From assembly GCA_003223515.1 (NCBI GenBank), contig QHVI01000036.1, forward strand, positions 1 through 56,226: a stretch of 56,226 bases of DNA, given 5' to 3'. The notes under the pieces were generated by a model. It searched no databases. It saw only the letters and a list, made by a program, of their open reading frames with translations, and had not been told where the DNA came from. Both the position numbers and the translations under genes were made by a program. This DNA is from Candidatus Angelobacter sp. Gp1-AA117 (lineage in GTDB: Bacteria; Acidobacteriota; Terriglobia; Terriglobales; Acidobacteriaceae). Below, piece after piece: positions 3,518-46,063 of this stretch. Positions within the stretch are counted from its first letter, which is position 1. Each line of letters starts with the position of its first letter.

Positions 3518-3609
3518 GACCCATCTCATAATGCGGTTAAGAGCATTGATGGGTGGAAGAGCGGGCCTTCAGGACCGCGGCGCAGTGCGAAAAGCTGATG
3601 GGCTTCACC
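3518..3609. repeat. CATCTCATAATGCG inverted-repeat element, truncated copy
   Basis: CCATCTCATAATGCG followed by GGGTGGAAGAGCGGGCC matches the element at 45494-45624 over most of its length. The match stops at GGGCTTCA, exactly where the AATGCCACTT element begins (3611). This copy therefore seems to have been interrupted or truncated by that element. Confidence 0.65.
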
Positions 3610-45253: not shown

Positions 45254-45493
45254 GAAAGTGTCCTCAGGTTTGAAATAGAGTGGAATTGTATCCGATGTAT
45301 AAGCAATACGAATGTTTCAGGGCGGAAAGGAAGTGCTGCTGAAGTCAGCGATCGCGGACATGGATCATGCGGGGTAAAAGCTTCGGTCCCCAACCGCCGG
45401 CCATGGCCGGATTTTGACCACGGCGATGGAAACTGCTTCGGTGATCAGATCCAGCCGGGGGCCGACGGCGACAGGAATCGCCTGGAGTAATTA
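45254..45493. other. Spacer between amine oxidase and repeat, with a possible gene remnant
   Basis: On the minus strand a frame without a start (about 45375-45490) reads LLQAIPVAVGPRLDLITEAV then SIAVVKIRPWPAVGDRSFYP before a TGA. It may be the 3' part of something interrupted by the adjacent repeat, but composition alone supports it. The promoter for the amine oxidase may lie here. Confidence 0.25.
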
Positions 45494-45624
45494 GATGCCA
45501 TCTCATAATGCGCTTGAGCGCATTTGTGGGTGGAAGAGCGGGCCTTTAGGCCCGCGTTGCAGCATGAAAATTGACGGGCTTCAGCCCTGGTGGAATGTCC
45601 GCCGCATTTATGAGATGGGTTCTA
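45494..45624. repeat. CATCTCATAA inverted-repeat element, complete copy
   Basis: The left end TTAGATGCCATCTCATAATG and right end CATTTATGAGATGGGTTCTA are inverted repeats. Inside are GCGCTTGAGCGC, the near-perfect palindrome GCGGGCCTTTAGGCCCGC and GGGCTTCAGCCC. A truncated copy lies at 3518-3609. The right end supplies the last codons and TAA of the 53-residue peptide gene. Confidence 0.72.
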
Positions 45625-45769
45625 GTCCTTTCATGCCGATGGGGGCTGGCGGGCAGACTGGCGGTGTCGTGTGACAACACGGTGCTATTGAGATGCAAAA
45701 GTTCTCGGAATTGGTAAGCGCCTGAATCGTTTCCTGATTCAGGGTGAGTTTTGATTGTTTCTTTTGCAT
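45608..45769 (-). CDS. RiPP-like precursor peptide, lanthipeptide-type leader (53 aa)
   Basis: A strong AGGAGG lies five bases before ATG 45769. The leader MQKKQSKLTLNQETIQALTN matches the KLxLNxETIxxL pattern of class I lanthipeptide-type natural product precursors. The putative core is rich in Cys, Ser, Thr and Pro (FCISIAPCCHTTPPVCPPAP), suited to thioether or other cross-links. There is no GG cleavage site. The last five codons (LEPIS) and the TAA lie in an inverted-repeat element, so the original C-terminus may have been replaced. No LanB/LanC-like enzyme or peptidase-transporter is in the window. The nearest downstream gene is an exported flavin amine oxidase 355 bases away. Confidence 0.62.
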   Translation of the reverse strand: MQKKQSKLTLNQETIQALTNSENFCISIAPCCHTTPPVCPPAPIGMKGLEPIS

Positions 45770-45916
45770 AAGATCCTCCTGATATTGCTGAAATCGCCGA
45801 TGATTTTACCTGTGATTTCCCCCGGAATCCGGGAGAAAGCTGGATCTCACAAAATCGGAAACTGGCTAAGGCAATTGGAGAGTCATGGGTGTTGATGCGC
45901 TAGCGTCCACCCTTAC

Positions 45917-46063
45917 CTAATCAGTGATGACATCAGTAGTGCAACGAAAACAACCCGTGACCTTGAACGTTCCGCTAGCACCAGTCACCTTTTCCAGTTC
46001 CTCGTTCGATAGCGTTCTCGCGCCTCTTCTACTCAGTACCCGATTATCCAGTTCGTTTGTCAT
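45917..46063 (-). CDS. RiPP-like precursor peptide with GAR-L-x-EELEKV leader (48 aa)
   Basis: ATG 46063 follows AAAAGGA. The N-terminal part MTNELDNRVLSRRGARTLSN plus EELEKVTGA resembles short peptides common in Acidobacteria and the EEL-x-xVxGG leaders of bacteriocin-type precursors. The presumed core SGTFKVTGCFRCTTDVITD has two Cys and several Thr and Ser. It is the upstream member of the pair; 147 bases separate it from the 53-residue gene on the same strand. Function is inferred from pattern only. Alternatives are a small regulatory or secreted peptide. Confidence 0.6.
   Translation of the reverse strand: MTNELDNRVLSRRGARTLSNEELEKVTGASGTFKVTGCFRCTTDVITD

Follow-up and report, generated by a model that had tools for sequence, protein, structure and literature searches.

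A small minus-strand gene at the edge of a genomic repeat

The stretch of DNA analysed here (the window) is the whole of contig C185, positions 1-56226, of genome G000, which comprises 6.48 Mb on 206 contigs. An earlier note, made from the sequence alone, had placed a 53-codon gene at 45608-45769 and left its strand unsaid. Our list of open reading frames (ORFs) bears out the coordinates and the length and puts the gene on the minus strand, where an ATG opens a frame of 53 aa; the plus strand of the same interval carries four stops. The AGGAGG and the ATG it described are both there, five bases apart, and the leader and the Cys/Ser/Thr/Pro core it quoted match the ORF translation exactly, the full peptide being MQKKQSKLTLNQETIQALTNSENFCISIAPCCHTTPPVCPPAPIGMKGLEPIS (Table 1). 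A sigma-70-like promoter was sought around the gene and none was found, which counts against reading it as a precursor gene. Another small ORF, with ARTLSNEELEKVTG and a Cys/Thr tail, lies 147 bases upstream on the same strand, and no second copy of it was found in the own-genome stretches scanned. A tRNA-Ala gene lies about 730 bases from the precursor gene.

Table 1. Features of the window and of related loci, with positions and strands
Feature	Position	Strand	Remarks
Putative orphan class I lanthipeptide-type precursor gene	45608..45769	-	53 codons and stop; leader common to eight other G000 genes
Shine-Dalgarno AGGAGG	45775..45780	-	ATG five bases downstream; sequence CAGGAGGATCTTATG
Putative leader recognition motif KLTLNQETIQAL, residues 7-18	45716..45751	-	K, L, L, Q, E, T, L invariant in 9 of 9 genes
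Core region, residues 21-48 (putative boundary)	45626..45709	-	three [ST]xxxC units: SENFC, SIAPC, TPPVC
Palindromic genomic repeat, about 141 bp	45486..45626		37 matches in G000 including itself
Second small RiPP-like ORF, 48 aa, TLSNEELEKVTG then Cys/Thr tail	45917..46063	-	TIGR01847 13.1 bits, cut-off 15.7, E 0.13
Sister secreted-looking KLx[LV]xQ[QG]TLRQQ protein	L165:9451-9966	-	LanB gene follows, no LanC adjoining
Sister secreted-looking KLx[LV]xQ[QG]TLRQQ protein	L169:3524-4111	+	LanB gene follows, no LanC adjoining
Sister secreted-looking KLx[LV]xQ[QG]TLRQQ protein	L167:9571-10158	-	LanB gene follows, no LanC adjoining

The 3' end of the gene runs into the palindromic repeat, and the final LEPIS (codons 49-53) together with the stop codon lies inside it, so that the original C-terminus is uncertain. 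Among 19 copies compared, 45626 is the exact end of seven and is crossed by none; a further, partial copy lies at 3521-3607 of the window. The hairpin of the repeat may also terminate transcription of the gene. A hairpin follows the stop codon in seven of the nine precursor genes described below, equalled by at most one of 40 simple shuffles, and the figures for those of contigs C173 and C128 are five and eight of 40; in the window gene this hairpin is part of the repeat. It is conceivable that insertion of the repeat cost the window copy its proper C-terminus and left it as a non-functional relic among functional paralogues. The origin of the last five codons and stop fits such a loss, and a degenerate family copy on contig C54 suggests that members do decay, but the Shine-Dalgarno, the leader and three [ST]xxxC units are intact and all lie upstream of the repeat, and we consider a relic unlikely. 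Since all four Cys are likewise upstream, the window peptide is probably usable despite the end supplied by the repeat.

A family of nine genes confined to one genome

The window gene is genuine and belongs to a set of at least nine dispersed over the same genome. We found nine intact precursor genes of 45-56 aa on nine contigs (C22, C31, C92, C128, C148, C168, C173, C185, which is the window, and C199), with the common leader motif KLxLxQET[LI]xxL and differing, Cys-containing cores. Their starts were picked by us, two being GTG, and a GGAG-type site precedes the start in all nine. The degenerate copy on C54 comes from a one-mismatch site and is not counted as intact.

The family was assembled from a three-row leader alignment, which grew from a weak own-genome match of the window peptide (C173, E 0.036) and a motif match on C128. 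Searched against 398 genomes of the taxonomic family, the three-leader model hit ten places in G000, all with E <0.01, and these included six further intact genes (E 3e-6 to 5e-3). Outside G000, the 397 remaining genomes gave a best E of 0.078 in frames shorter than 130 codons, and matches better than this occurred only in frames of at least 469 codons; one weak match, in G048 (E 0.081), turned out to be a clustered precursor of the kind discussed below. A DNA pattern for KLxLxQET found ten exact sites in G000, and run backwards as a control gave 4 matches against 14. A nine-row leader model applied to 396 genomes of the phylum returned nine matches in G000 (E 1.2e-11 to 1.9e-7) and a best E of 6.2e-6 in the other 395. 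Any match at E 0.05 was seen in 14 of the 396, and stretches were taken from five of the 13 other matching genomes (G618, G726, G735, G623 and G506). Of nine genus genomes searched, only G000 gave a match below E 0.6, and the family is absent from the remaining eight. The earlier note would have taken a lack of homologues that keep the leader and vary in the core as evidence against the gene; such homologues exist as nine copies within G000, and none is present in the eight other genus genomes searched.

Several matches were discarded. Pattern matches were rejected on C16 (the motif has no preceding start codon), C46 (the frame has only 14 residues), C146 (the site falls within a large ATPase-like protein) and C2 (an exact match with one Cys in the frame and a motif without the last Leu). 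A scan of genome contigs with the window peptide gave 96 stretches fitting a pattern, none of them confirmed as a relative. In a whole-peptide search of the 398 family genomes, 88 had a match at E <=0.1, G000 included, and the best outside G000 reached E 6.8e-4; matches L008, L009, L011, L013 and L022 are frames without the KLxLxQET leader, and the remainder were taken for noise from the list of matches.

Could the window gene be a chance ORF? It is short, one of 98 ORFs of at least 30 aa overlapping an 8-kb stretch. Against this stand its eight paralogues and a held-out test, in which a profile of the eight other leaders ranked the window peptide top of 1154 window frames with 16.7 bits, the runner-up frame scoring 4.1 bits and the best of 20 residue-shuffled sets 8.7; we regard chance as a negligible explanation. 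The seven invariant leader residues are encoded by varying synonymous codons in the nine genes, for example four codons at the first leader Leu and four at the Thr, which indicates that selection acts on the peptide. BLASTN similarity was detected in four of 36 gene pairs (E 0.01), confined to the first 53 bases of the gene, and none was found in the 400-base flanks of the nine genes.

The cores contain Ser/Thr and Cys, as a class I lanthipeptide requires, and two Cys columns are invariant across the alignment of the nine peptides. [ST]xxxC occurs 13 times in the nine cores (the window core taken without LEPIS) against a mean of 5.88, a count reached in none of 2000 shuffles; this is the only one of nine spacings examined that stands out. 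The units are unevenly spread, with three each in the window, C168 and C199 cores, one each in four cores, and zero in those of C173 and C22, which counts against a lanthipeptide reading. The peptides might instead be unmodified small regulatory or secreted peptides whose N-terminal motif is common for another reason. Modification of the family is only inferred, and the scanned neighbour genes have nothing in common: of ten neighbour proteins scanned around eight precursors, three had no Pfam match at E 1e-6, and the ten include isocitrate lyase, Ada, CrcB, an M20 peptidase, an amine oxidase and an FHA/cyclase protein. The two invariant Cys columns, the [ST]xxxC spacing and a leader of a LanB-linked type nevertheless argue for modification and make unmodified peptides very improbable. 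The C168 precursor begins 30 bases past a tRNA-Ser gene (L094:1356-1449).

Leader type and candidate enzymes

That the leader is of the type seen in class I lanthipeptides, as the earlier note had suggested, finds support in the eight genes with the same leader and in a match to NF038158 (lant_leader_L1b), the sole NCBIfam model reported for the window peptide, at 15.8 bits and E 0.011, below its 27-bit cut-off. A six-frame search of G000 with this model returned the window peptide as the only place at E 1; of the paralogues, C128 and C173 were scanned and had no NCBIfam match at E 0.5. Class I LanA peptides with an LxLxKx5L leader, many ending in GG, are described from Bacteroidetes in the excerpts available of PMC7268733. 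As far as those excerpts go, the G000 leaders have the same spacing (LxLx, one residue, x5L) and class I enzymes occur in both; the G000 peptides differ in having Gln for Lys at the fifth motif position (9 of 9), in leaders without a GG end, and in the absence of a lanB beside any of the nine genes. Gln at the Lys position is also found in one of the two L102 precursors, and GG occurs just once among the nine peptides, in the C22 core, where it stands between two Cys. By the features that can be tested in sequence the family would thus follow a class I mechanism, while by score it falls outside NF038158 and appears unlike the LxLxKx5L/GG type in two features.

The earlier note had proposed that the modification enzymes act from elsewhere or that the peptide belongs to an undescribed class, and had advised a genome-wide look for LanB and LanC. 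Such a search located the sole complete lanC-lanB operon of G000 on contig C144, which favours enzymes elsewhere and leaves an undescribed class unnecessary. Its LanB (1089 aa) overlaps the LanC (439 aa) and contains the glutamylation and elimination domains (PF04738, 516.7 bits; PF14028, 221.4 bits). The motifs RPTPFGLF, HLRLR, ERYGG and HMHLNR, which we take to be catalytic, are kept, and the protein matches the NisB sequence of 4wd9 with E 3.3e-39. The LanC is a stand-alone cyclase (PF05147, 158.3 bits) that aligns to NisC over GLAHG, WCYG and CHG, presumably the zinc ligands. Neither the motif, the ORF list nor a three-frame reading revealed a recognisable precursor beside this operon. Between LanB and a TPR gene, a small convergent ORF with an AGGAGG (L051:8385-8546, plus strand) is Thr-rich with VTDP twice; it has no Cys and was rejected as a precursor. 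The contigs of eight of the nine precursors show no LanB or LanC match over the cut-off. Next to the C128 precursor is a second LanC, which seems to be divided between C128 and C48, so that the cyclase assignment is not unique.

Our preferred reading, to which we give a probability of roughly 0.8, is that the window gene encodes an orphan class I lanthipeptide precursor on which the LanBC pair of C144 acts in trans; this pair would also serve at least eight further scattered precursors with differing cores and so yield a small library of ring peptides. The first 20 or so residues would carry the handle KLxLxQET[LI]xxL, which would dock on the LanB dehydratase. LanB would glutamylate Ser/Thr of the core and eliminate to dehydroamino acids, to which LanC would couple core Cys, giving small thioether rings; in the window peptide these are probably S21-C25, S27-C31 or C32, and T34/T35-C39. 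As the leader is without the GG end seen in four clustered relatives, it is probably removed by some other protease. Beyond these steps, we infer export and a function of the products.

A real precursor could also be served by another enzyme, either a LanKC of class III encoded on C109, the two divergent LanB-like (Lant_dehydr_N) proteins on C180, or one of an unrecognised class. The genome does encode all three of these named proteins. The C180 pair, however, flanks a frame of 1766 codons that by eye resembles an NRPS (L052:7771-18376), the one member scanned with Pfam has PF04738 only and no PF14028 elimination domain, and some relatives have KLxLx..T leaders in the vicinity of a full LanB gene, leaving this alternative improbable.

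The link between leader and LanB was followed in relatives, and recognition of the leader by LanB is suggested by the motif spacing together with LanB proximity in some of them. Eight named loci contain a LanB relative of 34-40% identity. KLx[LV]x[KQ]xT[LV] leaders lie within 7 kb of the LanB in three of these, a deltaproteobacterial MAG and two Hymenobacter; none was found near the LanB of the other five, which counts against the link. A motif match at L104 was judged false as a LanB-linked precursor. Nine LanB-bearing regions of the phylum gave a similar picture: KLxLx[KR]ET leaders lie within 6 kb of LanB in four (G048, G726, G735 and G506), near LanBs 37-41% identical to that of G000, and the surroundings of LanB in G134, G050, G153, G339 and G297 yielded no precursor of this type, which again counts against it; a motif match near the G297 LanB was judged false. 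The four clustered precursors all have GG after the motif and Lys/Arg where the G000 peptides have Gln and no GG, and by motif there is one precursor per region there, in contrast to nine scattered in G000.

A full LanB is present in three of the other eight genus genomes, from which the family itself is absent. These LanBs (G134, G050 and G153) are the closest, at 47-49% identity, and group with the G000 LanB at 100/100. Each adjoins a protein, 171-196 aa long and by eye with a signal-peptide-like start, which contains the motif KLx[LV]xQ[QG]TLRQQ (KLNLNQQTLRQQ, KLQVKQQTLRQQ or KLQVKQGTLRQQ), with 4, 11 and 10 [ILV]TKG units respectively. No LanC was found in G050 and G153 at E 1e-8, and G134 has LanC-like matches away from its LanB; the [ILV]TKG-unit protein is a possible substrate for LanB only. 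The motif beside the closest LanBs suggests that the handle goes with the LanB lineage even when the remainder of the substrate is different. This leads us to a broader and tentative proposal, which we hold at somewhat less than even odds: G000 would have a class I LanBC combinatorial system, in which a free-standing LanBC modifies any bearer of a portable KLxLxQ[E/Q]TLR handle genome-wide, and in sister species the same LanB lineage, without an adjacent LanC, would install dehydrobutyrine on a secreted Thr-repeat protein via the same handle.

Scattered precursors in class I and class II

According to the parts available of PMC10783134, the class II prochlorosins and synechococsins combine a single leader with differing cores in many precursors, whose genes can lie singly at scattered sites and are served by one enzyme (ProcM/SyncM). 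The best reading of the G000 set may be as a class I counterpart of this arrangement. As the available text describes them, in both, several precursors have the same leader and are encoded apart from the enzyme, the enzyme link being predicted for G000; theirs is a class II enzyme and a Nif11-type leader ending in GG, in contrast to the separate LanB and LanC and the KLxLxQET leader without GG seen here. No Nif11 model was among the matches of the window peptide. The available portions of PMC12328550 and PMC10885120 make no mention of a scattered class I set, and none was recognised in the open-licence literature as judged by titles and abstract openings. Within that literature the scattered arrangement, known for class II, is apparently new for class I.

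Mining for class I systems usually looks beside LanB, and scattered precursors like those of G000 would be missed. If modification in trans by LanBC is correct, this would be a class I system that is promiscuous by nature and uses a short portable tag, useful for libraries of ring peptides, and it would raise the question of why class I and class II each came to have scattered precursors independently. In the stretches taken from G618 there was no match to the G000 LanB. The same genome has three small ORFs of KLxLxRETL type on two contigs (L171:6820-7050, minus strand; L171:7134-7496, plus strand; L172:5511-5801, minus strand), possibly a second scattered system.
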